A DNA stretch of 64,000 nt from Lytechinus variegatus (Eukaryota > Echinodermata > Echinoidea > Temnopleuroida > Toxopneustidae). Under the pieces are notes generated by a model that saw only the letters and a program-made list of their open reading frames with translations, was not told the origin of the DNA and ran no database searches. Below, in pieces: positions 44,201 to 63,994 of this stretch (position 1 is its first letter; every line of letters begins with the position of its first letter). The position numbers and the translations under genes were made by a program. The DNA lies in assembly GCF_018143015.1 (NCBI RefSeq), contig NC_054746.1, positions 38,814,687-38,878,686 of the forward strand. Reading direction: 5' to 3'.

Positions 44201-47150
44201 ATACCCTGGTCATGGGCACACGCTGTATGAACCTCATCCACGGGGGGGGGGAGGAGGGTGGGGGGTTGGTAGTCAAATACATTGCTGTACACACAGGTGA
44301 CCAAATAATTTCCAAGCACCCCCAAACAAGTTTATCTCTGTGTGCATTAGTACCCCCTAAACAAGTTTTTCGCGGGTTTTATTTACACATTTTTTCCCCT
44401 TAACAACTTTCCGCCAAAATAAGACCTCAGGGAAAAAGCTTAGGGAAAAACATACCCTAGCCACGTTTGGCTAGTCTTAACAAAAAAGCTTTTATATGTT
44501 TGACCTCGCAATTGACTATTGACCAGTCTTTCAAGACCACCCTTTTTCTTGAAAATCTTTTTTTTTATACCCTTAATGAGTCCACGACTCCACACGCAGA
44601 CTGCATCCAAAACTGAAAAAAAAACACCCCTCTAAATACGTTTTTTTTACGCTTGTATACAGAAATATATTTGACTGCCCCCCCCCGGGCTCATCCACTC
44701 CATGTGGAGCATTCACACTTGTAATAATTCTCAAACTAGGCATGCTCCATGTACACTGGCTTTTGCATCCTTTCAGAAAAACATTAGTCAGTGTCTGGAG
44801 AGGACCATACACTAAGCAACAAACTGAATGTGTTTTACTAATGCCAATTCATATTGTAATAACACCAATGCATGTTTAACAACATAGATTTAACACGAGT
44901 GTTAAATGCTTGGTGTGGTTCTCTGAGAAAACTGGTGGTGTAGTAGAAAATACCACTATTTTTTTTAGTATACAGGCGTAAGGTGGTACTGTACTTTGTG
45001 AAAAGTCTGTGTGAAGAACACCTGTGTGTTTTCCTTTATCATCAAAACACCACACTAATATTGGTAGTTTGGTTGTATTTTTCTTCAGAAAATTTGCAGA
45101 AATTCTTAAAGGCTACTCTCATTTCTGTGGGATGTAAATTGTTGGTGGCACATCGATTTATACACCTCATGTAGACAGTACATGTATCAACTTAATACAT
45201 GCCATAAAAAAAATGTTACCCGCTATACAATAGCTTACCAAGCATCAATCACAATGCTATATTAGGCAACATTCTTCTTCTGGATCAGCTTTCATGTGGG
45301 GGGGGGTGCTCAAATCATATTTTGACCTGGGAGTGCCTCACAAATCCCTGAAATGAGGGTCTAAAAAACTCACTACACAATGTATACAAGGTCATGAGGC
45401 ATGAATTATCACAGATGATACATGTACATCATACATCTCTACTCTACAGGTCCCCTTTTCCTCACTATTTCATTCAGAAAGAAATACCTCCTCACTGAGC
45501 AACTTCCAAGGAAGCTCTGAGATTTGTGATTTCAAACTATGTGTTTTTTAACATCTTTAAAGTGAATTGAATTCAATCTGATTATTAATTATCAAAAAAT
45601 ATGCAAAATTAAAAAAATTACAAACATTACAAAGTATAGAGATGAAACATTATACAAATGACCCATCATACTTAAAGATAAATGCAAAATACTTGGTTTA
45701 TATATACATATTAGGAAAATTGGATGCCCATGGAAGCAGTATGCTTGTAAGCCTGTAAGGTTGTGTCACCAAGAAGTCACTGCATAATCAAGCATGATGA
45801 AATAGAATTCTGGTAAATGTATCACTTCTTACCTTGTAATGAATTAAACTCTACATTCTAATAAATATTCAGTCATGTGAATATTTTACACTTGCTCAAG
45901 ATTTAACGATCAAATTTTACAAAATATTGTTCTTTCATTTTTCATTGATTCGACCAAAAAAGTGGTAGGGGTGTCCCGCTGGTGAGGCAAAAAACGGGGG
46001 CCTTGGAGCGGGCTCTCTAAAAATAAGGGTCCTCGGAACGGGCTTCGGAACTACAAATCTTTGTGAAAACGGGGGTCCTTGGAACGGATCTCCGGCGTGT
46101 GAGTGCGTATATATGCATCCCTATGGAACGGGCAATCGTGCACTATGCAGCTAGCGCGGCCTCCGCCATGTGCGCTCGCGCTGAGGCGATGGTCGAAAAG
46201 CGCTCTACGGCCGCTTTTCACCAAAATTGCAGCTCCTTGTAGCAGATCAATGCGATCTGAACGGCGTAACGAAAAATATGCGACGCTTTGGAGCGGATTT
46301 CTTTCTTCTTTTTTCTCGATAAGAAGAAAATGCTATGCCTTGGAGCGGCTTTGTTCTTTTTCTCAAGACCAAAAATGCTATGCATTGGAACAGAAATTTG
46401 AGTGTAAAAATGGGGGTCCCCTCCGCGGCACATATCCACTATGCGTTATATACTGAGTGCCCCCCCCTGGGACCTAAGCAATCATTGAATACAAAATTGT
46501 GTTTCAACATTATCCTAACCAATGAATAATGCCCTCAGTAAACAGGTATCGGTACCGAAATCTCACAGCTGCAATGCGGGCGAGACAAAAAAAAACTTTT
46601 TTACTATTATACATCTTTCATACATGCAGATTACAGCAACATACATGCACTTGCTGGAAAACACCCTTCTACCCACTGTTAAAAAAAAATCTTGCACTTT
46701 TACTTTCATTGATTGATTCACACACACACCTTTATCTTCCTCGTCTATTTTTAGAGCTTTAGTTAAATACTCAAATGCTCTTTTATGATGTTGTTTCTGC
46801 TTTGATAACTGTGGATCAAGCTTAGTTCCATTAGATGTTGGATTGGAAGACGATGAAGGATTAATTGTTACTCCAGTCATAGCATTCCCATTATCCTCCA
46901 TGTCGTTTTTCAGAGGACCATAACCCGTCTTGCTGCTGTCGACCATGCCGAAACTCTCCCGTCCACTGACTCGAGAAACAGCCTCAGTTATGAGAATCCA
47001 CAGCTGGAACACAATAAAACGAAGTAAGCTGAACAGTAAAAGCACTGGATAGCTGGCCCACTGGAAATTCCTTCTGTGAATGGACTGTGGACCTTCTGTT
47101 TTGGGCTCCTTTTTATCGCCGGGAGTTTTTGGGCGAATTTTCCGGGGCAT
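2119..47150 (-). CDS. SPAST: Spastin (microtubule-severing AAA ATPase), 5' six coding exons; 3' part outside window
   Basis: Spastin is a hexameric AAA ATPase that cuts microtubules at endosomes, ER, lipid droplets and the midbody. Six exons on the minus strand join in frame: 46730-47150, 42949-43035, 35434-35520, 6964-7121, 4618-4795, 2119-2258. In order they encode a basic N-terminus, a hydrophobic hairpin, an MIT domain (first three exons), a Ser/Pro/Arg-rich linker, the segment matching the start of the microtubule-binding and AAA regions ([14 protein letters not shown]), and the AAA N-terminal part ending just after Walker A (GPPGNGKT). All introns have GT-AG ends and phases agree. The remaining AAA exons (Walker B, sensor motifs) were not found between 1 and 2118 and should lie to the left of the window. 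The spastin identity is firm because hairpin, MIT and the [20 protein letters not shown] stretch all agree with the family. Confidence 0.93.
2395..3420. repeat. Tandem repeat, units of about 153-192 bp, each with a DR1 motif, ending in a GCC/hairpin tail
   Basis: About six degenerate units share the words AAGTTTCATGAACTAG, AAGTTATGATGG, GGCCAAAGTTCATTGACC and CATGTGACCTGAAAC. TGACCTTTGACCT occurs at 2534, 2687, 2850, 3013 and 3205. The array ends with a GCC run at 3362-3377 and a hairpin GTCTCAC...GTGAGAC near 3398-3423, which looks like a defined element end. It lies in the intron between spastin exons 5 and 6. Confidence 0.85.
4618..4795 (-). CDS. SPAST: Spastin coding exon 5: microtubule-binding region and start of AAA domain
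   Basis: The 178-nt exon starts [18 protein letters not shown] and continues through [20 protein letters not shown] to VTFNDI. The [17 protein letters not shown] segment is the characteristic spastin sequence that leads into the AAA domain. The acceptor is CTGCAG and the donor ATTG followed by GTAAGC. A perfect AGGTCA-A-AGGTCA direct repeat (DR1) happens to overlap the acceptor junction at 4785-4797. Confidence 0.92.
4796..6963. other. Spastin intron 4 (between exons 4 and 5)
   Basis: No further exon was found. The only notable site is an X-box-like palindrome at 5712-5725. The rest is AT-rich intron sequence. Confidence 0.6.
5712..5725. promoter_or_regulatory. X-box-like RFX motif GTTACCATGGCAAC
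   Basis: The 14 bases fit the RFX consensus GTHNYYATRRNAAC at every position. It is one of four such sites in this gene's introns (see also 12423, 25742, 33454). Function is inferred from the motif only. Confidence 0.4.
6964..7121 (-). CDS. SPAST: Spastin coding exon 4: Ser/Pro-rich linker
   Basis: The 158-nt exon encodes a basic, serine- and proline-rich stretch starting [14 protein letters not shown] and ending SVPSQPK. It is low in hydrophobic residues, as expected for the disordered linker between MIT and the microtubule-binding domain. The acceptor is CATAG and the donor CCCAAG followed by GTAGTT. It enters in phase 1 and leaves in phase 0, joining the next exon without a gap. Sequence here is poorly conserved between spastins, so the call rests on splice signals and phase. 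Confidence 0.78.
7425..9903 (+). mobile_element. 5'-truncated, frameshifted non-LTR retrotransposon (CR1/L2/Jockey-like LINE)
   Basis: A degraded LINE lies sense on the plus strand inside the large spastin intron. Pieces read in order are the linker after the endonuclease (7440-7742: [16 protein letters not shown]), the RT (7711-8880), and the C-terminal domain (about 9088-9554, ending [12 protein letters not shown] ... [12 protein letters not shown], typical of the group). RT motifs are visible: [42 protein letters not shown] and the catalytic FADD. The reading frame shifts at least near 7720, 7940, 8073, 8875 and 9400, so it is inactive. ORF1 and the endonuclease are missing. The 3' end carries a TGAAA-type short tandem tail at 9883-9903. 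Clade assignment by eye only. Confidence 0.88.
8074..8880 (+). pseudogene. Reverse transcriptase domain of the LINE (longest intact piece)
   Basis: This 268-codon open stretch holds most of the RT palm and fingers. It starts just after a one-base insertion in what should be GK-APGFDG. The first catalytic Asp lies in [10 protein letters not shown] (residue 136 of the stretch), followed by [12 protein letters not shown] (192-203) and [10 protein letters not shown] with the Asp pair at 225-226. It ends at a frameshift in an A7 run, after which the reading continues in another frame. It is a fragment of a dead element, not a host gene. Confidence 0.88.
11554..12120. repeat. Minisatellite, about 5-6 copies of a roughly 100-bp unit
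   Basis: The phrase CCAATGCACAACCAAG followed by AAACATTCATCAAGATGGAA and ACTGGTTCTGAT recurs. Unit starts are near 11554, 11650, 11753, 11848, 11953 and 12107. The unit length is about 95-105 bp, with one longer interval caused by inserted ATGGATG-type sequence. GGGTGGGG runs recur between copies. Confidence 0.85.
12423..12436. promoter_or_regulatory. X-box-like RFX motif GTTGCCATGGTTAC
   Basis: Its reverse complement GTAACCATGGCAAC fits GTHNYYATRRNAAC. It is the second of four such motifs in spastin introns. Function is inferred only from the motif. Confidence 0.4.
18868..20896. mobile_element. Foldback element: 2-kb near-continuous palindrome with TTAA at both ends
   Basis: The two halves are inverted copies of each other around AGATCT at 19887-19892. 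Strong arm homology covers about 19061-19850 and 19924-20702, for example TGACGTCACTGTCTGTACGA at left against TCGTACAGACAGTGACGTCA at right. Homology weakens in the outer 150-190 bp on each side, but the extreme ends match again: TTAA-AGGAGAAATATATTG at left and CAATATATTTCTACT-TTAA at right. A TTAA target duplication suggests a piggyBac-like mobiliser, by inference. No transposase is visible. The left arm has a short acidic open frame from 19182 ([14 protein letters not shown]); its counterpart in the right arm is disrupted. Confidence 0.85.
22586..22826. mobile_element. MITE-like palindromic element with TACAC...GTGTA ends
   Basis: The left end reads TACACTGTAAAAACTGCGGTG and the right end, reverse-complemented, TACACAGCAAAAACTGGTG. 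Both arms continue with GTGTTAA ... ATAGAGGACCACACC. The interior is built of GGTGTTA/TAACACC words. There is no coding capacity. Fragments of related sequence occur at 44850-44970 and 48190-48240. Confidence 0.8.
24656..24781. mobile_element. Small palindromic MITE-like element (about 126 bp)
   Basis: The left end TTTCATGAAAGTTTTGTCTG and the right end, reverse-complemented, TTTCATGAAAGGTTTTGTCA form inverted repeats that extend about 28 bp. No coding capacity and no clear target duplication. Confidence 0.65.
25742..25755. promoter_or_regulatory. X-box-like RFX motif GTTACCATGGCAAC
   Basis: This is identical to the 14-mer at 5712-5725 and fits the RFX consensus. It is the third such site in spastin introns. 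Confidence 0.4.
29170..29500. repeat. Purine-rich tract (G/A on the plus strand)
   Basis: About 330 bases are dominated by GGGGG, GAGAGG and GGGAGG words on the plus strand, with few pyrimidines. Open frames on the minus strand here are Pro/Ser-rich by-products of composition. Confidence 0.7.
29640..30075. repeat. Short-unit repeat arranged as two inverted halves (GAACCTTCGGAA words)
   Basis: From 29650 to about 29785 the plus strand carries CCGAAGGTTCGT-type words. From about 29785 to 30050 it carries the complement, AACGAACCTTCGGAA, in units of about 40-45 bp. The right half keeps one frame open over several units ([10 protein letters not shown] repeated), but similar open frames on both strands argue for a repeat rather than a gene. 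Confidence 0.75.
31142..31641. mobile_element. Non-autonomous foldback element with TTAA duplication (family TTAA-A)
   Basis: Ends are TTAA-AGGGGAAGTTCACCCTG at left and CAGGGTGAACTTCCCCT-TTAA at right, a perfect inverted repeat. Imperfect inverted homology continues inward over 100 bp or more (GATTTGTGACGTCAT at left, GATGTCACAAATC at right). No coding capacity. The TTAA duplication is piggyBac-like, by inference. Confidence 0.8.
33016..33118. repeat. Polypyrimidine tract
   Basis: About 100 bases are nearly all C and T on the plus strand, built from CTCTC, CCCTCC and TTCTC words. It is simple sequence in the intron. Confidence 0.7.
33454..33467. promoter_or_regulatory. X-box-like RFX motif GTTGCCATAGCAAC
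   Basis: All positions fit GTHNYYATRRNAAC. It is the fourth such motif in spastin introns and the nearest one to exon 3. Confidence 0.4.
35434..35520 (-). CDS. SPAST: Spastin coding exon 3: MIT domain last helix
   Basis: The 87-nt exon reads [20 protein letters not shown] and then KERLNI. This matches the third MIT helix (ARRLQAKMMTNLVMAKDRL-like). The acceptor is ATCCAG and the donor ATAA followed by GTAAGT. Phase 1 on both sides. It is separated from exon 4 by a 28.3-kb intron. Confidence 0.9.
37860..38390. mobile_element. MITE-like element with AGGGTGTGTTCAATG inverted ends
   Basis: The left end AGGGTGTGTTCAATGT and the right end ACATTGAACACACCCT are perfect inverted copies. Homology continues about 50 bp inward (CATGAATCATG ... 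CGAAAACTTG at left against the complement of CAAACATGATTCATG at right). An internal copy of GGGTGTGTTCAAT sits near 37954. No clear target duplication and no coding capacity. Confidence 0.7.
39222..39808. mobile_element. Non-autonomous TTAA-flanked foldback element, family TTAA-B copy 1
   Basis: Ends are TTAA-AGGGGAATGAAACC at left and GGTTTCATTCTCCT-TTAA at right. The arms, about 200 bp each, are inverted copies sharing AAGTTTGAGAAAAATCGGAC, AATGCTATGGAGAT and GGCAATGCGACAA. A second copy of the same family, closely similar along its length, lies at 51621-52205. Confidence 0.85.
42949..43035 (-). CDS. SPAST: Spastin coding exon 2: MIT domain middle
   Basis: The 87-nt exon reads [20 protein letters not shown] and then IAVDCSKPG. 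This matches the second MIT helix of spastin, which binds ESCRT-III tails such as CHMP1B. The acceptor is TACAG and the donor is CCAG followed by GTAAAG. Phase 1 on both sides fits its neighbours. Confidence 0.92.
43200..43624. repeat. Dispersed repeat, family TTAA-C copy 1
   Basis: It shares TCCTCATTGTCAT, CAGTGAGTGACAT, CATCTAATTTTGATGAATT and the right end GGTGGACTTGACCT-TTTAA with the repeats at 49190-49423 and 49430-49919. The left end is not clear. A stretch of open frame (43397-43624) lies wholly inside it and is not a gene. Confidence 0.7.
45955..46460. repeat. CpG-rich degenerate repeat of CCTTGGAACGG words
   Basis: Words such as GGCCTTGGAGCGGG, GGTCCTCGGAACGGG, GGTCCTTGGAACGG, CGCTTTGGAGCGG and GCCTTGGAGCGG recur at about 50-bp spacing. 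Base composition is far richer in G+C and CpG than the surroundings. The open frame at 46103-46456 follows the repeat and has no recognisable domain. Confidence 0.6.
46730..47150 (-). CDS. SPAST: Spastin coding exon 1: N-terminus, membrane hairpin, start of MIT domain
   Basis: This exon encodes a Lys/Pro-rich N-terminus ([11 protein letters not shown]), a hydrophobic segment of about 25 residues ([20 protein letters not shown]) matching the spastin ER/lipid-droplet hairpin, a Ser/Asn-rich spacer, and the first MIT helix ([18 protein letters not shown]). It ends GATAAAG before the donor GTGTGTGTG, leaving phase 1. I chose the ATG at 47148-47150 because the basic PRKIRPK run resembles the start of other spastins. 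An in-frame ATG 13 codons upstream (47187-47189) is an alternative. A further in-frame ATG at 46944-46946 lies just after the hairpin and has G at -3 and G at +4; human spastin uses a second start at the same place. Confidence 0.9.
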
Positions 47151-47189
47151 GGGCGGCCGAAACCGATGCCCCTGTGCAGTACAAATCAT

Positions 47190-50140: not shown

Positions 50141-50213
50141 ATGACGGTGTTCAGAAAGACTTTACTTATTACCTTCAGCTTGATCATTTCTACAATAATT
50201 CAGAGTGCAGCGG
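50141..50213 (+). CDS. Sphingomyelinase-like gene 1, exon 1 (signal peptide)
   Basis: The ATG at 50141 starts a 24-residue signal peptide (MTVFRKTLLITFSLIISTII and QSAA). An in-frame ATG 20 codons upstream exists, but the downstream start gives a standard signal peptide and matches the paralogues in length. The donor is GCGG followed by GTAAGT, phase 1. Confidence 0.85.
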
Positions 50214-53200
50214 GTAAGTTTTATCTTTTTCATAATAACGTAACTATTATATATCCTGTTATCAGTTCCTTTTGCACTCCAGTGTTTTTTTTATATGTAT
50301 ATCGGGTTATATTTTCATACACATGCGAAAATTAATTCAAGAGTGTAGGCCTAATTTGTATATTTTTCCATTTATTTTTTTGACTCACTGATATTAGACG
50401 TTGTTTTACTCCAAATTAAGTCCAAATATCGATTGCTTCTAAGTTTAGAACCAATGATAAGCAAATCTATTCCACGAGTATTCAAACGCGTTTTATAATC
50501 ACAAAAGCTCTCGTTCATTTCGCTATAGCTTTCTGCTTGAAATGATTCATCCGATTTACTTATATATACTATGTAATGACACTCTCTTTTCGATATAAAC
50601 CTATTTTAATACTCATGCATGAAATTAAATTGGTTTGCATCTCCTCTATTTGCCAAAATATGTAAAACACCAAAAAATTTATTCAATCCTTGAGCGTGGA
50701 TGTTTAGATTATTAAACGACTATGTAATATCCGTATACCATGCAAGTATACTGTATTTAAGAACTCTGCTTTGCCTTTTCTTTCACTCTTTTATTTTCCT
50801 TTTATCGACTGTTCTTCTCTTCGCTGGACCCCATGACAGAACAACAGTGCCATGATTGGCACAGCTGATAAGCAAGATCCAGCCAATTTAATCTGAATAG
50901 GCCTATATTTCTTTGTATTATGTAAGCCATTTGAACCATTATGTTTATGTTCAATGTTTAAATCGGAAAATAAATACTCCAACTGCTACTCTTTTTTTCT
51001 CCCTTTTTTTATGGGGGGTTGCTTTTATTGAAACCAACTTATCGCCATGATGAACTTCCTCATTCAAGCAAGCACAATTTAAAGAAGCAATCCTACATAA
51101 CGTTTGTTTAACTACAGTATTTCAAACGAATATCATTATAAAAATAATTATTAAGCGATTCCTCTTTAATGATTTTCCACGCCTGTATTATTACCAACCT
51201 CAAAAAAAAAAAAAAACACTACAGTGAATAGATAGTTGTAATTTTTCTTTCTAAAAACGGAGAGGGAAGACGATTTTTTAGTTGAACATTATATTTTTGA
51301 GATGGTCCCTAGATGGTCCCTTGATATAAGCCACTTTTAAAATGTATTAATCAAATCAATTATTTATTGCAAATGAAAATACCTCAACACCAGTTGGCTT
51401 GTGTCTTTTTAGCAGGCCGATGTTGTCAATTTGCTTCGAAGGAAGTATCGTTGGGGGCGCGAGTTCACATTTCATATATTTGGGATTAGATCGTGAGAGA
51501 ATTTCCTGAAGGCCTGGGGGGTCGTTTCATAAAACTGTTCGTATAAGTTAAGAGCGACTTTACGAACGACCCATTGTGCGTGTTTTTTGCACATTATCGA
51601 AATGCTTTGCAGCGGAGACATTAAGGGGGAACGAAACCTTTGGAACAAGTAGGCTTGTGTCGAAACAGAAAAATCAAAGCAAACGAACAAAGAAAGTTTG
51701 AGAAAAATTGGACAAAAAATGAGAAAGTTATTAGCATTTGAATATTGCAATCACTAATGCTATGGAGATCCTCCCATTGGCAATGCGACAAGGTTGTGTG
51801 ATGTCACATGTGAACAACTTTCCCTTTATTGATTGACTATAAAATACTCCCAAAATGTCTCTCTTTGCTTCTTCTTACGGTGATACAAACTCTTTATCCA
51901 AGATGTATTCTTTAAAAATCTCTATTACATGCCCTAGAATATGCTCTACTGATAGATGTGAAAAAAGAGGCAGTTTAAGTGAAATATATACTAAAGTAAT
52001 GGGGAGAGTTGTTCACAAGTGACATCACACATCTTTGTCGCATTGCCAATGTGAGGATCTCCATAGCTTTAGTGATCTCAATATTCAAATGCTCATAACT
52101 TTTTCATGATTTGTCCGATTTTTCTCAAACTTTCGTTGATCTGTTTCTTTAATTTTTCTGTTTTCACACAAGCTATCTTGTTCCAAACATGTCATTCTCC
52201 TTTAAAGAAGATTAAAAGACGCCTATCTGAAACTCCTCTTACTTACTTACTTGAAAGAAATAATATAACACAACGATAATGTACATGATATTTTTTAACC
52301 CTAACAAGACCGGGGTTTTTTTCCGGAGGAGGGGGAGAATTTTGGCGGTATAGGGCCTACACAATTTTTTGTCTGCGCTTGCAATCCACCAACCCCCCCC
52401 ACACACACACACTTGAAAAATTCATGGTGCCATCACTGCCCTTTCGTGCATGAGGACTTCTTGGGGATATTTTTTAACAAAATTTAATGCGTGGCTGAAA
52501 TGCCATATAAAATGCCTTACCCCTATATGTCGACACCCGTAGGTTCAGACATCACTGATCACACACGTGATCTTCTAAATTCTAACAGTGAGTAACGCCC
52601 CTGTTAAACTATGTTCTCATTTAACTCATCAATTTCAAATCTTTTATCTTTCATTCTATCAGATCAAGACTGTCAAATCCAACTGGAAGACACTCCATCG
52701 GTATGGCTTGGTAAATATCAAATATCATCTCAGTTGCTTTTCTTCACTTTTTTTAAATTCATTTCCACAACCTAATCACTTAGCTCGTCAGAAAAAAAAG
52801 AAAATAAGATAAAAACTTTCAGTAAAAAATACCTCTCCCTCTATATTCAAATATCTAAGTTTTAATTTCCTTTAGCCATATTTTCATGGATAGTTATCAA
52901 GCCAGAGATTTATAATGTACTGTAACTATGTTCTTCTCAGAAGCCGTAGTCTAGGTCCAAGGACCATTTATGCACCTCTCTCGACAGAGTGCATCACTTG
53001 CAATCTAATCTACCTTCTCTCCTGAATAATTATATAATAATATAATAGGTAGCTCACAAACTATAAGTATGTGAATCGTAACATACGCAGAATCGGGTGA
53101 TCTATATTCTCTTGTTTTGTATTTATTTTTTTTTCATGTTGATTCATTTCAGGCGATGAAGATGACGTAACATACTGTGAGGCGGAACCATCTCAATGCT

Positions 53201-54453
53201 CTGATTTTGGTCTCGTTTTTGTCTGTGAAGACCCGTCCGGTGGTTCTCTTGAACCATGCGCTAATGGCACCAAAGTCCTGTGCTCTGTTCCAGATCCCAT
53301 CCCTCTTGATGACCCAACACCGTCATCTGAAATCCGTGTGGTCATTTACAACATCTGGGAACTTCGATACCTCTATTATCAGAACGGGCAGCGAGAACGA
53401 ACGTGTCGTATTCTTCATGAGCTCTTCCGTCTTCGTCAAGACATCGACGTGATTGTATTCAATGAGGCCTTTATGGGTGGGTGCTTCTCCAAGTTCAATT
53501 CTACAGTTGAGATGAGCACTCTAACTATTCGAGATATTCTGGTACAGCATGGATTCATCTACCATACCCAGACAGTTGGAGAAGTAAGGGAACTACCCAA
53601 GTTTGAGAACGGTGGTGTCTTTATTGCTTCTAGGTGGCCAATAATTTCCGAAGATGAGACAATTTACACGGAAGCGATTAAGACGACTGCAGATGCGTTG
53701 TCAGCAAAAGGCGCTAAATATGCTCGGGTTCTTAAGTCGGTAAACGGATCGAGTCGATATTACAACATCTTTGGGACCCATCTACAGGCATCAAAAGGAG
53801 TAAATGCTGACAGGGTTCGTGTAAGTCAGGCAACGGAGATGCACGATCTGGTCGTGAAATTGGCACTCTCACCAGAAGAGCCAGTAATCTATGCAGGGGA
53901 TCTTAACACAAACTATTATGACAGGGAACCTAGGTCCAACACTGCCAACATCCTCAAGGCCCTTCATGCTTTGGTCCCACCGATCATTGGTGAACTCAAT
54001 TACACCACGGACGGCTTACTCAATGATGCTAGAGACGGCGACAGTGCATCCTACAAGGATTATGTAATCTACCATGAAGACTACCTTCATCCATTAACAG
54101 CTTCTCAGGAAATCCTGCGTCCCAGGGCATCAGAGTTCTTTGAAGTCTGCATAGAGGCCATCACACCATTCCCTACCTATGCGGACTCTGATAGATGTCG
54201 AAAGACTCAAAATATTAGTGATCTTGCGGATCACTTTGCAGTAATTGGTGTCTACAAGTTTGATAACAAAGCGGTAACAACCGAATCAAGTGAACCCAGC
54301 ACCACGAACGTCGTCACCCATGAACCTACAGAATCTGGTCAAACCACAAAATCAGATACAACCTCTTCCATAATGACTACAGATTCAGGTGTCACCAGCA
54401 GACTTTGCGTGGCTACTTTCATTTTATCGATACTCTCGGGCCTACTTTTCTAG
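50141..54453 (+). CDS. Sphingomyelinase-C-like phosphodiesterase 1 (secreted, probably GPI-anchored), 3 exons, 473 aa
   Basis: The predicted enzyme hydrolyses sphingomyelin to ceramide and phosphocholine, by homology to Bacillus-type sphingomyelinases of the exonuclease-endonuclease-phosphatase fold. Exons 50141-50213, 52663-52710 and 53153-54453 join in phase 1. Residues 1-24 are a signal peptide. Residues 25-90 form a Cys-rich module (CEDPSGGSLEPC). The catalytic domain follows with N107, metal-binding E145 (VFNEAFMGGC), FIASRWPI, H250 (GTHLQA), D290 and N292 (GDLNTN) and D400-H401 (DLADHFAV); all expected residues are present. A Thr/Ser-rich stalk and a hydrophobic tail (VATFILSILSGLLF) with no cytoplasmic end suggest a GPI signal. 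Several N-glycosylation sequons are present. A paralogue follows 1.2 kb downstream in the same orientation. Substrate is inferred; another phosphodiester is possible. Confidence 0.88.
51621..52205. mobile_element. Non-autonomous TTAA-flanked foldback element, family TTAA-B copy 2
   Basis: Ends are TTAA-GGGGGAACGAAACC and GTCATTCTCCT-TTAA. Internal words AAGTTTGAGAAAAATTGGAC, CTATGGAGATCCTCCCATTG and GGCAATGCGACAA match copy 1 at 39222-39808. It lies in intron 1 of sphingomyelinase-like gene 1. Confidence 0.85.
52663..52710 (+). CDS. Sphingomyelinase-like gene 1, exon 2 (48 nt)
   Basis: This micro-exon encodes DQDCQIQLEDTPSVWL plus one base. It aligns with the 45-nt exon 2 of gene 2, with a shared C and a PxVWLG ending. 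The acceptor is CTATCAG and the donor GGCTTG followed by GTAAAT. Phase 1 on both sides. Confidence 0.82.
53153..54453 (+). CDS. Sphingomyelinase-like gene 1, exon 3 (catalytic domain and C-terminus)
   Basis: The acceptor is CATTTCAG at 53145-53152. The exon carries the remaining Cys-rich module, the whole catalytic domain, the Thr/Ser-rich stalk (about residues 410-455) and the hydrophobic tail, and stops with TAG at 54451-54453. It has no internal frameshift or stop. Confidence 0.92.
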
Positions 54454-54782
54454 GGATCAGTCTAGATTGGTGATTCCATTATACATCATCTACAATTATT
54501 CGATAATAGTAGTGATCAGTTAAGTCACTAGTGAATCTATCATAATTATGTAACTTCACGTGTAACTTATCGATTTCATATCTTGCTATTTTTTTCATAC
54601 ATACTTAAAAAAAAACAAAATTGCTTTGGGTGAGTTTTATTCAAGGTATATGTTTTTAGACGGAAAATCTAGTGGGATACTTCAATTCCTAGCTGACACT
54701 CATTAATTTACCGATATCAGTATTCCAATTCAGATGGAGGCTCCAAAAACAAATACAAAACATTTGATAATTGTATTTAAAA

Positions 54783-54796
54783 AATAAATTAATAAA
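54783..54796 (+). terminator. Candidate poly(A) signals of sphingomyelinase-like gene 1
   Basis: Two AATAAA hexamers lie at 54783-54788 and 54791-54796, about 330 bp after the stop codon. Other AT-rich hexamers are nearby, so the site used is uncertain. Confidence 0.35.
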
Positions 54797-55649
54797 TTGG
54801 AAAGTATTTACAAAACGGCTCAATACAATTTGTGTATTTCCTCAAATAAAAAAATAGAAAACCAAAAACGTGAGTGGACTGCTAGCTCCCACCCCCATCC
54901 AAAATAAATTGGCGAATAAAAAGACAAAATAAGAGTATTCGTGTGATTCTTTATTTTACAGAAAATCTTTAAAGTTCAAACTCGATTTGTACAGTCAAGA
55001 GAAGATAAGCCGACAGTATCGAGGGTAAACAGAGTGGAGATTATACAGGGGTAAATCAAAGAGAGAAAGAGAGGGGACAGACAGAGAGACAAAGAGAGTC
55101 AGAAATGAAAATAAACAAACAATAAAAGAAAGAGAGAAATTGGATTGGCATGAGAGATTGGAGGATATTAAAAAAGGAAATGTGATATGATTTACAGCGT
55201 TAACTACTATTTCAAAGATAGTTTTTTTTGCATCTTTGTATTCGTCGAAGTAGTGTTTGTTGATGTACTTCTGTTGCAAAAGAAAAAATGCAAAAAATCA
55301 AAGATTGATTAAAATGTAAAGATAAAAAGTAGTACGAATATGTACTGGAGTGAAGCAATATCACACCGTAACTTAAGTATACCATCTGAGATAGAACTTG
55401 CATGGACATTCAATCAAAATGGACTGTTGGTATCATGAAGTCCCGCAAGGAGTGTACACTTTAATTTGGTTATCTCGATGAAGTCTAATCTCGTCGATTA
55501 CATTCCTTGGTGAGGTTGAACTGATGAGCTATTGCGTTCAGAAATGTTTACCAATCTTACGTATTGTTCCTATACATGACCCTCCGAAAGCAGCACTCAG
55601 TAATCAATAATAAGAAGCATTTCGGACCTGTCACTCTGTAACATTCAAG

Positions 55650-55725
55650 ATGGGAATTGTTCACCACACTTTGACATTAATTGCGTGGAGTATCCTATTT
55701 TTAACAGCATTTACCAACGTTAAGG
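55650..55725 (+). CDS. Sphingomyelinase-like gene 2, exon 1 (signal peptide)
   Basis: The ATG at 55650 starts MGIVHHTLTLIAWSILFLTA and ends FTNVK plus one base before GTAAGT. It has the length, hydrophobicity and phase of exon 1 in gene 1 and of the orphan exon at 59648. Confidence 0.85.
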
Positions 55726-58060
55726 GTAAGTATACTATGTATACCCATCTTAAATTGAATTTCAATTTCTATAAATCTTAAATTTCTATAAGTTTTCTGT
55801 CAGCTGTTACGGCTGTAAGGTCTACAAATAGAGGACACTGCGCTATGATATGCACTTGCCAAAGAAACCATGAATTGGTGAATATGTCATTTAGAGGAGG
55901 AGTCGGACAAAAGTTGCAAAATTAAGTGAAATAAATTACGGTAGAGAAGTCTTAGAGCTGTACATCTATAAAATAAGACGTGGGCATAGAGGAGATGGAC
56001 GTCTAGGATGAAATGAAATAATGCAATGACCACATTGCTCTAACTTTCCTTGTTTATTATATGTTTACAGGTAACAATTGCGATGTAGATGATGGACAAC
56101 CTACGGTTTGGCTTGGTACGTCAATTTGAATATTTTGATTAATAGGAAGAACTGATCATATTCAAGATATCGATCATGTTGTTGATATATAGTAATATCC
56201 AGATTCTAGATATATACATGTCGGCTTCCTCCCATGGTCCTGAAAGAGAGGTGCTTTGCTCGTCAAATTTCCCGGGACCAAAATTATCTTCATTTTTAAC
56301 GGAAACCTTTTTTTGTTGCTTGTTAAATTCACATCAGCACCCTTGCTAAAAAAGGTCGTTCACATAGCTTTGCCTCCTCTCCGCATAAACAATACAATAT
56401 GAGTTTTGTATCGTCAGGTAGTTGTGCTATAGCCATTTCATAAAAAAATTATCAGCAGTGACTAAATTGTCTTATCTGGCAATTAAATTAAGATCCATGG
56501 TTTTCATTAATTGTGAAGAACTGGTCTCTTTATTGTCAGAAGATGGCTATACCAGTTTATGGTGTCTCTGCCGAAGAGCTTCAAGATACGATACAGGCAT
56601 ATATGCCTACATGGAACCAACTATGATTTTAACTGTTTTATGACATCATTCAAAATTAAGCAATCTGTCAATGAAATAAGGCACACATGTATGAATAGAC
56701 AATTAAGGCATTATTTCGAAATGTCGATTGTGAAAGGAAAGCATTCAAACTTTATGCTGAAGTGATGATAATGTTATGTAAATAAGTTGTAAGCAACATT
56801 GAGTATAACGTTCACTTTTGGTTGTATTTGACAGGTGACGAGGATGACGCATATTTCTGCCAGGCAAGAGCCGAGCATTGTGACCACTTCGGTCTTGATT
56901 TCGTTTGTGAGGATCCGAGTGGAGGATCACTTAGACCTTGTATCATTGGGACCAAAGTGAAGTGTGCATCACCACCTGCTGTACCCCTGACTGATCCCAC
57001 TCCTGCCACCACTATTAGAGTTCTTGCATACAACGTCTTTGAGCTACGTTATCTCTATTATCAGAGTGGTCAAAGGGAACGTACATGTCGTATTCCAAGA
57101 AAAGTCTTCGGTATGCATCCAAATATAGATGTCATTGTGTTCAACGAAGTCTTCATGGGAGGTTGCTTTGCCCCTTTTAACGATACCATCGAAACAAGTA
57201 CCCTAACCATACGTGATATTCTGGACCAATATGGATTTATCTATCACACAGATACCGTTGGTGTTGGAGAACCTTTCCCAAAAATTGAGAATGGAGCTAC
57301 ATTCATTGCATCAAGGTGGCCTATAGTCAAGAATGATTCTCGAGTTTTTGATATAGCCGAACCATATTCGTGGATGGCTAAGGGAGTTGTGTATGCCATG
57401 ATCAATAAAACTGTTGCTGGACAGAGTGTTATGTACCATATCTTTGGGACTCATATGCAAGCTTTCCGAACCCCGAATGCAGACTATGTTCGTGTTGCGC
57501 AAGCTACAATCATCCATGAATTCATGCTGGAGCAAGACATCGGTGATGATGAACCTGTTATCTATGGAGGTGACCTGAATGCAAGACTGAACACAACCAA
57601 CGGTGATGACGTCGTTGACGCTCTTGACGCCACACTTCCAACGATCATCGGTGAACTCAATGTCACATACGATCACGAGAACAATGATGTTTTTGACGAA
57701 AATAACGATACGAACTGGTGGTTGGACTATGTCTTGTATAGTCGATCCCACATTCAACCTGACGCTGCTACAATACAGGTCGTGAGACCTAGGATGTCTA
57801 CTCCTTTAGTTGTCTGCTCGACGGCAATATCACCTTTCCCAAGCTATCCCAATTCTGACCGATGCGTTGAAATAAAGAACATTACAGACCTATCTGATCA
57901 CTATGCAGTTCTTGGAACTCTTCAATACAGAATCGATTTCCTTACTCCAACAGACTTCCAAATAACGACTGATTCAGGGACTGGACGTCTTACCTCAAAC
58001 AATTTGGTTGTATCTCTCACATTCATCATTTTAATCACAAAACTAGTAATTGACTGTTGA
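55650..58060 (+). CDS. Sphingomyelinase-C-like phosphodiesterase 2 (secreted, probably GPI-anchored), 3 exons, 448 aa
   Basis: This is a tandem paralogue of the gene at 50141-54453, with the same three-exon, phase-1 structure: 55650-55725, 56071-56115, 56835-58060. Residues 1-25 are a signal peptide, followed by a Cys-rich module (CEDPSGGSLRPC) and the catalytic domain. Active-site residues are N107, E145 (VFNEVFMGGC), H247 (GTHMQA), D287 and N289 (GDLNAR) and D395-H396 (DLSDHYAV). LDYVLY and FIASRWPI also match Bacillus-type sphingomyelinases. It lacks most of the Thr/Ser stalk of gene 1 but shares TTDSG before a hydrophobic tail (VVSLTFIILITKLVI), so a GPI anchor or a short membrane anchor is likely. 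Six or more N-glycosylation sequons. Intact. Substrate inferred from family. Confidence 0.89.
56071..56115 (+). CDS. Sphingomyelinase-like gene 2, exon 2 (45 nt)
   Basis: The exon encodes NNCDVDDGQPTVWL between TTTACAG and GTACGT, with one Cys and the PTVWLG ending shared with gene 1 exon 2. Confidence 0.83.
56835..58060 (+). CDS. Sphingomyelinase-like gene 2, exon 3 (catalytic domain and C-terminus)
   Basis: The acceptor is TTGACAG at 56828-56834 and the stop is TGA at 58058-58060. It holds the full catalytic domain and hydrophobic C-terminus without interruption. Confidence 0.93.
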
Positions 58061-58524
58061 TACTTGGATATCCTGACTTACAGTAAAATTTGGTTGGCTT
58101 TTTCAAATAATAGTAGGCCTAAACATAATGATGAATCAGCCACGTCAGCGGACATTTCACATGACTTGATATAAATCAACTACATTCCTGTGTTTAACCA
58201 TAAATACAACTGTAAGGATTTGATGAAACATGTTTCTATCAATATCATTGTACGATAAAATCTAAATCGATCATACTTAAAGAAATATTTTTTACAGATT
58301 AGTTTCCATTTTTATTTTGTAACGTCTAGCATTCATTTGAAAAGAAGTGCAACTATTTGTTTGACGAAATGTTTCTGAGCATATGTGAGCATATACATGC
58401 TTATCAATGTAGTAAAATGTTTCTGAATAGTGCTACATGTATGCTTGTGAAATTTATGCAATAATTTATTAGCACATGTACCTCTTAATTCGTGGGTTAT
58501 TGTATAAGTAATGATTTATTTGTA

Positions 58525-58585
58525 AATAAAAAACAACATGTATTAACATTCATTATTTATTGGGTGATTTCATAAGGTAAATAAA
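58525..58585 (+). terminator. Candidate poly(A) signals of sphingomyelinase-like gene 2
   Basis: AATAAA occurs at 58525-58530 and 58580-58585, 460-520 bp after the stop codon. The choice between them is uncertain. Confidence 0.35.
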
Positions 58586-58742
58586 GATATAGATTTGTCA
58601 CAATCAGCAATATACTACACGGATAAAATCACAAAAGTTTGTTAAACTCATATGTTCTGTAGGTTTGCAGATTGCAATTAGTTTTTTATCTTGACACTTT
58701 ACTTATACACACAGTGTTATCTCATGCTAAAAGTCAAACAGA

Positions 58743-58957
58743 GTCGTATTCACAAAGCTTTTTACAATTTACGCACGACCTTATACTAAATAAGATTCTT
58801 AATCATTTTAATTTTCATCTTTGTAGATTGAAATATTGTAAATGTAAGATTGTTACTTAACACAATTGGTTACGGATTGTGCGTTGAAAAAATTAATAAA
58901 GATTTTTCTATTAGCTTAGTAACAGGTCAATACACTACGAACAGCTTTGTGAAATCT
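58743..58957. mobile_element. Possible small MITE with ATTCACAAAGCT ends
   Basis: The left end ATTCACAAAGCTTTTTAC is inverted relative to GAACAGCTTTGTGAAATC at right. Inverted homology is short and imperfect. A half-copy of similar sequence (TCATAAAACTGTTCG) occurs near 51524-51542. Confidence 0.4.
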
Positions 58958-59647
58958 GGTAAGATATCATACCAATTTGTAATCTCTGTCTTCTGTCAAT
59001 AAAGTTTGAGGAGGAACTCAACAAATTAAAAAAGGTTCGTAAAGTTTGTGTACTTGTGTTCATTTAATCAGATATCAGCCAAATTTGCTATCTTGTCAAT
59101 ATTATTTCATGAAGATTAAGCTAATTAATGACATTTACCTCTTAATCAAAGAGGCCATAATGAAATGAGGTTGTTCTTGTTCTGGTGGTTTAAATATTAC
59201 TCCTTAATCACACAGTGAATATTATGAACTTTTTGAGGGGCGGAGGTGAGAGGGGTGATTAGAATAAAAGCCACTTTTGAGAACACCTTTATTTTTAGAG
59301 ACCTTGCCATTTCTTTTTGTCTGGTTATACAAACTGCAAAAGGTGTAAATGAACCTTCTTTTGATAAGGAAGCATTATTTGACTAACCAACCAAACAAAA
59401 TTAGAAGACTATCATGCCTATTATTTGCATCATATATAAGCCTACATTACTGAACTTTACTCCGATACCTTCTGTTTAGCAGCATGTCACAACAATCGTT
59501 ACTAGTGCGGTACATTGGCTCACATGTGTTTGTTATTAGACCAAGTTAATTTAAACTATAACAATTTTGATTCTGTTCTTAATATCTTCTCTTGAAGTCT
59601 GGCTTGGATTGTTTTTAGTTATTCGCTTATGTCATCAGATCTTTAAG

Positions 59648-59708
59648 ATGCATCTATCAGCTCTCTGTTTCACAGCAACGGCATTGATTTTTATCATTCA
59701 GGCCAAAG
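59648..59708 (+). CDS. Signal-peptide exon 1 of a third sphingomyelinase-like paralogue (partial)
   Basis: The ATG at 59648 encodes MHLSALCFTATALIFIIQAK plus one base before a donor (AAAG followed by GTGAGA). Length, hydrophobic content, ending in a small or basic residue before the split Gly codon, phase 1, orientation and spacing downstream of gene 2 all match exon 1 of genes 1 and 2. Exons 2 and 3 were not found between 59709 and 60848. The Penelope element at 60849-63994 occupies the rest of the window, so the missing exons lie beyond 64000 or the gene is broken. Confidence is moderate because a signal peptide plus donor can arise by chance. Confidence 0.55.
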
Positions 59709-60848: not shown

Positions 60849-60925
60849 ATATATTGGCGAAGAAGCTCAAAAAGCATTGAAGCGGGAGACGTAGCCTGGA
60901 TTTCTTCAACTTTTTATTAATACAA
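60849..60925. repeat. Left inverted repeat of the Penelope-like element
   Basis: This is identical to the reverse complement of 63918-63994. It contains GAAGCGGGAGACGTAGCCTG and ends AATACAA, where homology stops. Confidence 0.95.
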
Positions 60926-60956
60926 AGTCCCAATAGTCAATTTATCCAACTACAAC

Positions 60957-63227
60957 TTGTCCCAAGCTGAAATTAGTCTACTATCCAAAGGACTAAAATT
61001 CTGCCCAACACCACCGCAAGAAGATACCCTCCAACTCAAAAGAGACATACACAACTTTGGCAGACAAATGAAACTGAGATTTCATTTCGCTGACAAATCA
61101 CAAACAAACAGCCAAGACACAAACACCAACAAAGACACAAGACCACAACCAATATCGACACCAGCTAATGAAGATGGGGAAGAACAAAGACCTCCCCTCA
61201 TACAACGGAAAAACATGTGGACCCCACACGTCCATAACCCTAATCTTGAAATGTTCCTTCAAAATGTTGAAAGTGATATTCAGACCAATGCAGACAACTA
61301 CAACACAAAAAAACGACGAGACAATCTCACAAAAGATGAAAGACATGCCCTCAAAAAACTAAAATCAAACACAGACATAATAATCAAACCCGCAGACAAG
61401 GGATCCTCAGTAGTAATAATGTCGAAGGAAAACTACATCCTCGAAGCTGAAAGACAGCTTTCAGACCAGAGCACATACAAAGAACTCACACAGGACCCGA
61501 CACCATCACATCTTATGAAGGTCAAGGAAACGGTTAAAGAACTCGACATTGATTTAGAAACTCAACAAGGCCTTATCCCGAAAAACCCGACATGTCCTAA
61601 TCTCTACTTCCTCCCCAAAATTCACAAACCCAACAATCCAGGCCGGCCCATTGTATCAGGTTGCTCTTGTCCAACAGTCCAAATATCAAAATACCTTGAC
61701 TTCTATCTACGCCCTCTCACAGAAAAACTACCCTCCCACATCAAAGACAGCACTCACTTCTTGAAACACATCAAACAAATCAACAGAGACCCCAACACAA
61801 TTTCCTCCAGAACAATCCTTGTAACAGCTGACGTAACATCCCTCTATACAAACATACCCCACAATGAAGGAATGGAAGCTTGTCAAAAAGCATTAAACAC
61901 AAGACAAAATCAAAACCCACCCACACACCAACTCATCAGACTGCTCGAAATAATACTAAAACTAAACAACTTCCAATTCAACGGCAAACACTACCTCCAA
62001 GTTGAAGGCACAGCAATGGGTACCCCTGTCGCCCCTTCATATGCCAACCTCTTTATGGGTCAAATTGAAGAAAAACTAATAAACCAAATGAATTCACCCA
62101 CTGTCACAAAATCATGGAAACGTTCTATTGATGACATTTTTTTCATGTGGAATGGCTCGCCACGCACACTCGAAAGGTTCCAGGGGGAAATGAACAAGCT
62201 GCATCATTCCATTAAATTCACTTTCGAATCATCCCACCTCCAGACACACTTCCTAGACATATCACTCACAATACACAATGACCAAATAGAAACAGAACTT
62301 TATACGAAACCCACCGATTCACACGCCTACCTCCTACCCTCATCATGCCACCCTAAACACTCCATCAACAGCATACCATACAGCCAAGCTCTAAGAGTAA
62401 GACGAATTTGTTCCGAAGCTGTCCGAGAAGACCACCATCTCGGCCAGCTTCGGCAACACTTTGAAGACCGGGACTACAACCCACAAATCGTAAAAAAACA
62501 AATAGAAAAGGCAAAAGAAAAACCCAAAGAACAACTCCTCACATATCAGTGCAATCCAAAACAAAACAACAACATCTACTTCCCCATGACCTTCTCACCC
62601 GTAACAGCCAAAGTACCAAAAATAATTAAAAAACATTTCCCCATCCTACAACAATCACCAACAACAGCCAACATCTTCCCGAACAAGCCCACTACCTCCT
62701 ACCGTAGAGGGCGCACCCTACGCAACCTCCTTGTCAGGGCTGGACACCCCTTTCCAACACCAAACCCCACCGCCACCAACACCGCCAATGACCCCCCGGG
62801 ATTCTTCAAATGTAAATCACACAAATGCATTCTCCATAATCACATCAAGGACACCACGAAATTCACCAGCACCGTAACAAAACAAAATTACACAATAACA
62901 TCACACATCACATGCAAATCCACCTGGATAATATACCTCATTACATGTACCAAATGCAAAAAACAATATGTTGGCAAAACTGAAACCACCCTTTACACCC
63001 GATTCAACAATACGAGATCCGAAATACGTAACTTCCATTCACCACAACACAAGACTCTTCCATACACAGTGCACTTCAACCTTCCCTCCCATTCACTAGA
63101 AAATGTCCAAATTACCGGGATCGAGTCAATCAGAAGTAGGTCACGTGAAGCAATACTACACCGAGAGTCCTTTTGGATATCAAAACTAAAAACACTACAA
63201 CCACATGGTATCAATGCCGAACAATAG
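60957..63227 (+). CDS. Penelope-like reverse transcriptase with GIY-YIG endonuclease, 756 codons, 5'-truncated
   Basis: The protein copies element RNA into DNA using a telomerase-related RT and a GIY-YIG nuclease. The open frame runs from just after a TAA at 60918. The 60957 start is a TTG, not an ATG, so the true N-terminus is missing or supplied differently. Positions, counted from 60957: conserved KFCPTP (14-19), IIKPADKGSSVVIM (142-155), PKIHKP (220-225), catalytic TADVTSLYTNIP (290-301, Asp 292), GTAMGTPVAPSYANLFMG (351-368), SIDDIFFMW (390-398, Asp 392 and 393), a Cys/His motif (CKSHKCILHNH, 619-629), GIY-YIG (WIIYLI 657-662, YVGKT 671-675, Arg 682, likely Glu 737). RSIDDI has Ser where RYIDDI is common. 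No internal stop or frameshift. Confidence 0.93.
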   Translation: MSQAEISLLSKGLKFCPTPPQEDTLQLKRDIHNFGRQMKLRFHFADKSQTNSQDTNTNKDTRPQPISTPANEDGEEQRPPLIQRKNMWTPHVHNPNLEMFLQNVESDIQTNADNYNTKKRRDNLTKDERHALKKLKSNTDIIIKPADKGSSVVIMSKENYILEAERQLSDQSTYKELTQDPTPSHLMKVKETVKELDIDLETQQGLIPKNPTCPNLYFLPKIHKPNNPGRPIVSGCSCPTVQISKYLDFYLRPLTEKLPSHIKDSTHFLKHIKQINRDPNTISSRTILVTADVTSLYTNIPHNEGMEACQKALNTRQNQNPPTHQLIRLLEIILKLNNFQFNGKHYLQVEGTAMGTPVAPSYANLFMGQIEEKLINQMNSPTVTKSWKRSIDDIFFMWNGSPRTLERFQGEMNKLHHSIKFTFESSHLQTHFLDISLTIHNDQIETELYTKPTDSHAYLLPSSCHPKHSINSIPYSQALRVRRICSEAVREDHHLGQLRQHFEDRDYNPQIVKKQIEKAKEKPKEQLLTYQCNPKQNNNIYFPMTFSPVTAKVPKIIKKHFPILQQSPTTANIFPNKPTTSYRRGRTLRNLLVRAGHPFPTPNPTATNTANDPPGFFKCKSHKCILHNHIKDTTKFTSTVTKQNYTITSHITCKSTWIIYLITCTKCKKQYVGKTETTLYTRFNNTRSEIRNFHSPQHKTLPYTVHFNLPSHSLENVQITGIESIRSRSREAILHRESFWISKLKTLQPHGINAEQ

Positions 63228-63882
63228 ATCACTGACCCCTTACTCCTGATTGACCCTAACCCCACGACCCATTTCCGTTTCCCCTTTCAAGGGTCAATGC
63301 ACTTTCACTGATATACACACACACACCCACACATCACCAACCTGGTCAAGCACTTACAGTAAAACTTGGAGGTAAGAAATCAGACATTTATAATGTATCT
63401 TTTTTGTATACATCATTTATTTATCGCAGAACCACATATATCATTGTTACCTCTACCTATTATATGATACTTTGTGTAATTACCAGCACTACCAATTAGA
63501 GTAGGGTTGGTTTGGGTGTCTGCGCCTATGTATGTATGTGACTGCGAGTGTGATTACATACATAAGTTCACGTGCTTAGACACGAATGTATATATGAATC
63601 AATACCTTATATAATTATGTATTATTTTGAGATATATATACTATTATATATTATTATACATTTTGAGATATATGTATTATACAACACACATAACCCAATA
63701 CTTTCAAAAAATGTTCGTAATAAAAATCTGCGTAAACTTAATTAATTTTAGTAGCTATTGGATAATCCTAATTAAACATTACCGATGTAAAACATATTCT
63801 TTTAAGATATACCTCTATTTAGTAAATTAATCCAAATATATGCATATTACATGTAAAGCCATTATGTCTTTTACATCTTCAG
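63228..63882. other. 3' untranslated part of the Penelope-like element
   Basis: No coding content. It includes a CACACACACC stretch near 63317 and AT-rich sequence. It leads into the hammerhead-like motif. Confidence 0.6.
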
Positions 63883-63923
63883 ATACCTGAAGAAGGCCGA
63901 ACTAAATGGCCGAAAGCTTGTAT
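63883..63923 (+). ncRNA. Minimal hammerhead-ribozyme-like motif of the Penelope-like element
   Basis: In order the strand reads stem I ATAC (63883-63886), core CTGAAGA (63887-63893, fits CUGANGA), stem II GGCC-loop-GGCC (63895-63898 with 63908-63911), core GAAA (63912-63915), a two-base GC cap, TT (63918-63919, fits UH) and stem I partner GTAT (63920-63923). Minimal hammerheads with almost no stem III are reported in Penelope-like elements and thought to act as dimers. One unpaired A after the core (63894) is a deviation. The predicted cut after 63919 lies two bases inside the edge of the inverted repeat. Activity is not shown. Confidence 0.6.
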
Positions 63924-63994
63924 TAATAAAAAGTTGAAGAAATCCAGGCTACGTCTCCCGCTTCAATGCTTTTTGAGCTTCTTCGCCAATATAT
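63918..63994. repeat. Right inverted repeat of the Penelope-like element
   Basis: This is the reverse complement of 60849-60925 without mismatch. It begins at the TT of the hammerhead-like motif and ends CGCCAATATAT. Confidence 0.95.

Follow-up and report, generated by a model that had tools for sequence, protein, structure and literature searches.

Five apparently intact (open) genes, here called A to E, lie within 43 kb of the genome of the sea urchin Lytechinus variegatus (assembly GCF_018143015.1, 869.6 Mb in 33 contigs) and resemble bacterial sphingomyelinase C (SMase C). The window analysed, C7:38814687-38878686 (contig NC_054746.1, 64,000 nucleotides (nt)), holds A and B in full and the first exon of C (Table 1). 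All five genes have a common layout, with a signal-peptide-like exon of 61–76 nt, a micro-exon of 42–51 nt and an exon of 1.2–1.3 kb that would be joined at phase-1 junctions throughout. Gene A (73 + 48 + 1301 nt) and gene B (76 + 45 + 1226 nt) have AG/GT sites and phase-1 introns and encode proteins of 473 and 448 amino acids (aa) with approximately 50% identity; a second possible acceptor at 52669 would shorten the micro-exon of A to 42 nt. An initial annotation of the window had described A and B with this architecture and these lengths and had proposed a probable third gene, which is real and continues past a first intron of 4.4 kb to a micro-exon and a catalytic exon just beyond the window end. 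It missed D and E, the hydrophobic C-terminal tail and a cysteine pattern common to the cluster and one bacterium. For D and E, exon 1 was picked by scanning for a donor preceded by a hydrophobic start.

Table 1. Features in and around the sphingomyelinase-like gene cluster (position 1 is the first letter of the window; positions beyond its end are window-equivalent).
Feature	Position	Strand	Remarks
Gene A	50141-54453	+	Three exons
Gene A exon 1, signal peptide	50141..50213	+	Phase-1 end at CGG/gtaagt
Gene A micro-exon, 48 nt	52663..52710	+	Encodes DQDC...VWL(G)
Gene A exon 3	53153..54453	+	Cys module, catalytic domain, tail, stop
Gene A five-Cys part of N-terminal module	53176..53283	+	Exon-3 residues 9-44; full-protein Cys 49, 56, 65, 76, 84
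Gene A catalytic DNase I-fold domain	53320..54261	+	Exon-3 residues 57-370; N67, E105, H210, D250, N252, H361
Gene A C-terminal hydrophobic stretch	54409..54450	+	TTDSG before, nothing after; GPI-signal-like by hydropathy only
Gene B	55650-58060	+	Three exons
Gene B exon 1, signal peptide	55650..55725	+
Gene B micro-exon, 45 nt	56071..56115	+
Gene B exon 3	56835..58060	+	Cys module, catalytic domain, tail, stop
Gene C exon 1, signal peptide	59648..59708	+
Gene C micro-exon (42 nt) and catalytic exon	64126-64167 and 64461-65722		Just beyond window end
Gene D	71713-75352 (C7:38886399-38890038)	-
Gene E	81606-93050
Spastin-like gene	2008-2397 and 46566-47189	-	Upstream of cluster, transcribed away from it
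Reverse transcriptase and GIY-YIG open reading frame (ORF)	60921..63227	+	Uninterrupted, 768 aa, Penelope-like layout; within gene C intron 1, not part of the enzyme

A genome-wide search with exon 3 of B as query returned five matches among six scored candidates, all at C7:38.867-38.908 Mb, and the 53-residue cysteine module of B matched the A–E loci only. Hence, no sixth copy outside the cluster was found with these protein queries in the whole 869.6-Mb assembly. They were used for copy counting in place of Pfam PF03372, with which the genome scan was swamped by long-ORF matches, taken for retrotransposon endonucleases (150 of 2,806 candidates were scored). A phase-compatible micro-exon ending in W-L-G directly before GT occurs at five places on both strands of 104 kb, one per gene. 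Fifty mononucleotide shuffles average 0.36 such places and never hold more than 2, and all 50 give zero when a cysteine and [VIL]WL are also demanded. The B/D pair has a ratio of nonsynonymous to synonymous change (dN/dS) of 0.23, that is, purifying selection. In the remaining nine gene pairs the synonymous sites are saturated (proportion of synonymous differences, pS, 0.77–0.84), so no ratio is given for them and most of the duplications must be old. Divergence between the inverted copies B and D is patchy, with 2–5 nt differences per 90 nt in codons 61–120 and 241–360, 10–19 per 90 nt in codons 121–210 and 18–43 per 69–90 nt at the ends (codons 1–60 and 361–443), a pattern suggestive of gene conversion affecting some of the core.

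By both sequence and predicted fold, A–E are nearest to bacterial SMase C, with human SMPD2 and SMPD3 well behind. This bears out the initial annotation, which had favoured a bacterial SMase C character over that of animal neutral sphingomyelinases, and the motifs it listed (NExF, SRWPI, GTHxQA, GDLN and DHxAV) are present. The best structural matches of the predicted DNase I fold are solved bacterial enzymes, and across the set compared (B. cereus 2ddr/2uyr, Listeria 1zwx, Staphylococcus beta-toxin and Streptomyces 7cne) identity in structural alignment is 25–28%. Against the Pfam PF03372 (Exo_endo_phos) gathering score of 24.5, B reaches 27.6 bits and A 23.5 bits. Alignment places N16, E53, H151, D195 and N197 of the B. 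cereus enzyme at N67, E105, H210, D250 and N252 of A exon 3, and the profile and structure ranges place H296 at H361; these six metal and catalytic residues are invariant in all five genes. In the B. cereus enzyme His151 and His296 are the acid-base pair and Glu53 is an Mg2+ ligand, according to titles in the reference list of PMC9710629. Model strands 325–336 and 349–357 form a putative membrane hairpin, the loop of which carries Tyr in five of five genes and Phe in A and B, aromatics that may be counterparts of the bacterial W-F apex.

The closest relative found is a gene (L022; JAJFLH010000011.1, 1366-2577) in a metagenome-assembled genome (MAG) of Mariprofundus sp. OFTM252, a marine iron-oxidising member of the Zetaproteobacteria, with about 34–39% identity to A–E. 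L022 is intronless and its neighbours are a LuxR/alpha-beta-hydrolase gene and 6-phosphogluconate dehydrogenase; it therefore looks truly bacterial, though it comes from a single MAG. A phylogeny with bacterial, fungal and metazoan members had been suggested with the initial annotation, and the tree run here on 39 rows (LG+C20, 294 columns) groups the animal sequences at 100/99 and joins them to L022, again at 100/99. The other rows are bacteria of several phyla on weak deep branches, and the tree is unrooted and contains no rows for SMPD2/3, Bacillus, fungi or other animals. It drew on 93 matching sequences (5 animal, 88 bacterial), from which any shorter than 200 residues, or with 65% identity or more to a row already retained, were dropped; loci L072, L102 and L107-L112 had been removed before the profile search, and L114-L133 came after the tree. 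Forcing A–E into the Staphylococcus/Streptomyces/Chromobacterium clade is rejected by the approximately unbiased (AU) test (p-AU 0.009), so the earlier label 'Bacillus-type' applies only when taken broadly.

In samples of four phyla and one order we found no relative closer than L022, the best match outside its genome (3.6e-40) being itself a seed. Genomes matching at E 1e-3 number 11 of 398 (L022's own included), 5 of 395, 69 of 339 and 8 of 343 in the phylum samples, the last three counts including the seed genome, and 3 of 78 in L022's order (its own included), where the other two matches are distant. The 69 of 339 are from the phylum to which L063, an Oligoflexia MAG, belongs, and this share of matches to the superfamily is far above that of the other three. 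Three scans of viral contigs gave no relative, and phage records gave six matches, all in Staphylococcus phages. The bacterial contig scan used one peptide pattern that kept 80 of the 93 relatives, so bacterial sampling is partial. L022 is an outlier in its own group, which implies that the gene has moved at some time. It appears as a foreign gene in an iron-oxidiser for which a sphingolipid host is not obvious.

L022 resembles A–E in detail, with a signal-peptide-like start, the sequence GQRERxCRIP and much of the cysteine pattern. Ten cysteines are conserved in A–E, six of them in an N-terminal module to which the micro-exon contributes one (Cys28 in A). L022 has eight of the ten: four in the module, one pair in the catalytic domain and one pair flanking the hairpin loop. 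The micro-exon cysteine and the third module cysteine (Cys65) have no counterpart there, and because both are absent together a Cys28–Cys65 bond is probable. None of the 87 remaining bacterial rows has the four module cysteines together, although many rows are gapped there, and single columns hold Cys in 0–3 of the 87; among the 93 sequences scanned, L022 is the sole bacterial carrier of GQRERxC. A looser regular expression for the module matched A and L022 alone and missed B–E, and was set aside as uninformative. Matches of the module to Pfam DUF7478 (E 0.11) and to USP5 (E 0.57) were not significant. L022 also differs from A–E in consisting of one exon among bacterial neighbours and in ending at the catalytic domain. 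All five animal proteins have, by hydropathy, a hydrophobic C-terminus with 0–3 trailing residues, preceded by TTDS in four, and on hydropathy alone this tail looks like a glycosylphosphatidylinositol (GPI) signal. Compared with bacterial SMase C as a whole, A–E differ in the N-terminal cysteine module, extra cysteine pairs, an altered edge-metal site, the hydrophobic tail, the introns and a 12-column insertion relative to most bacterial rows.

We read the cluster as secreted, probably GPI-anchored, bacterial-type, metal-dependent sphingomyelinases C of ultimately bacterial origin, with a probability of roughly 0.6. The signal peptide would direct the protein into the secretory pathway, and the six-cysteine module, one cysteine of which comes from the micro-exon, would pack ahead of the DNase I-fold domain. 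There, a metal held by Asn and Glu together with the His pair equivalent to B. cereus H151/H296 would activate water, so that outer-leaflet sphingomyelin would be converted to ceramide and phosphocholine. The beta-hairpin, with its aromatics and flanking cysteine pair, may contact the membrane as in bacterial SMases, and the hydrophobic C-terminus would probably be swapped for a GPI anchor, giving a cell-surface enzyme. Most likely, a bacterial subfamily entered the animal line long ago and then gained introns, the third N-terminal disulfide and the tail. A more specific history, to which we give somewhat less than even odds, is that an animal lineage captured an SMase C already bearing the cysteine-rich module and the Cys-flanked hairpin and made GPI-anchored ectoenzymes of it, adding a new disulfide between a cysteine supplied by the micro-exon and one that arose in the module, with clustered duplication and gene conversion.

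Several points weigh against this reading. The B. cereus edge-metal site is altered, N57 being Gly and D100 Asn in all five genes, while E99 is Glu in four and Val in the other. Mutation of edge-metal residues is reported to reduce binding of the SMase to erythrocytes (PMC9710629), and on that ground our guess is that haemolysis by A–E would be weaker than by the bacterial SMase. The proteins scanned with NCBIfam TIGR03395 (sphingomyelin phosphodiesterase, the equivalog of bacterial SMase C), A with 78.1 and B with 92.1 bits, miss its cut-off of 248.2. Model confidence for the N-terminal module is low to intermediate (block predicted local distance difference test, pLDDT, 44–76), the model omits the micro-exon, and exon 1 of D and E, weaker than in A–C, is the least certain part of the gene models. 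Splicing, protein and activity are predictions from the genome sequence. The bacterial affiliation of the relatives is in part a product of sampling, because the sequence collections contain hardly any eukaryotes and one animal genome, and the one bacterial relative of the subfamily that was found comes from a MAG, the only carrier among 78 genomes in its order. The data are unrooted, contain few eukaryotes and represent the subfamily by a single animal and a single bacterium; they are compatible with transfer in either direction and set no age for it. The initial annotation had raised an old bacterial acquisition followed by intron gain and duplication, or else a native family; that interpretation is partly supported.

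The strongest competitor, which we hold to be unlikely but well short of negligible, is an old native eukaryotic family inherited vertically in animals, with the Mariprofundus gene as recipient of an animal-to-bacterium transfer. A close gene in 1 of 78 genomes suggests that it is foreign in Mariprofundus too, the best identity of 39% puts the two lineages so far apart that the event would be old, and none of the 87 other bacterial rows has all four module cysteines. However, the other relatives found (in collections almost without eukaryotes) are bacteria of several phyla, and L022 lacks the extra cysteine pair and the tail of the animal proteins; as the tree is unrooted, these points only lower the probability of this competitor. 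Slightly less probable is a secreted digestive, immune or defensive effector, with the tail a transmembrane stub or removed and the target in the membranes of prey, microbes or other cells. The fold and hairpin are as in haemolytic bacterial SMases, and tandem copies with a B/D pattern resembling gene conversion would be common in immune and effector families; the retention of the hydrophobic C-terminus in all five genes speaks against an effector, as do the changed edge-metal residues, tied to erythrocyte binding in PMC9710629. We think it improbable, more so than either of these, that the substrate is another phospholipid or phosphodiester, such as lysophosphatidylcholine or ceramide phosphoethanolamine, and not sphingomyelin; enzymes of the DNase I-like superfamily act on many substrates, and the 12-column insertion and the N57/D100 changes would fit, but it is SMases that match best in fold and in sequence. 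A divergent SMPD2/SMPD3 paralogue that is bacterial in looks only is very improbable, since these animal enzymes have the DNase I-like superfold and general chemistry in common with A–E but score far below the bacterial enzymes in sequence and structure (a comparison without an SMPD tree), and A–E group with a bacterial protein at 100/99 in a tree without SMPD rows.

Upstream of the cluster, a minus-strand exon matches spastin (E 2.5e-22, 51 residues), and the exon at 46566-47189 resembles the spastin N-terminus by eye only, Pfam giving no match there. Downstream, an exon at window-equivalent 99028 matches GABA-B receptor subunit 1 (4.1e-9). With ordinary animal genes as neighbours on a 45.6-Mb contig, contamination is unlikely. 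The retroelement in intron 1 of gene C spans 60855-63993 and has, by eye, inverted copies of approximately 70 bp on its flanks; a second retroelement is marked by an RVT_1 reverse transcriptase at 8065-8877 (2.8e-30).

Animal plasma-membrane ceramide is produced by SMPD-type and acid sphingomyelinases. Searches of open-access full text, in several of which most of the papers returned lack the word sphingomyelinase, turned up no account of animal genes for a bacterial-type SMase. This is weak evidence of absence, and automatic annotations may exist. If our reading of the cluster as bacterial-type sphingomyelinases is true, an outward-facing enzyme family of this kind would be an independent route of ceramide signalling, or a weapon; cell-surface ceramide production on one side and a defensive or digestive role on the other would be rival uses of the enzyme. 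The micro-exon and its cysteine pair form a structural marker to seek in other phyla, and the Mariprofundus relative makes the question of transfer testable. A gene of a haemolysin-like family would then have become a domesticated animal ectoenzyme.
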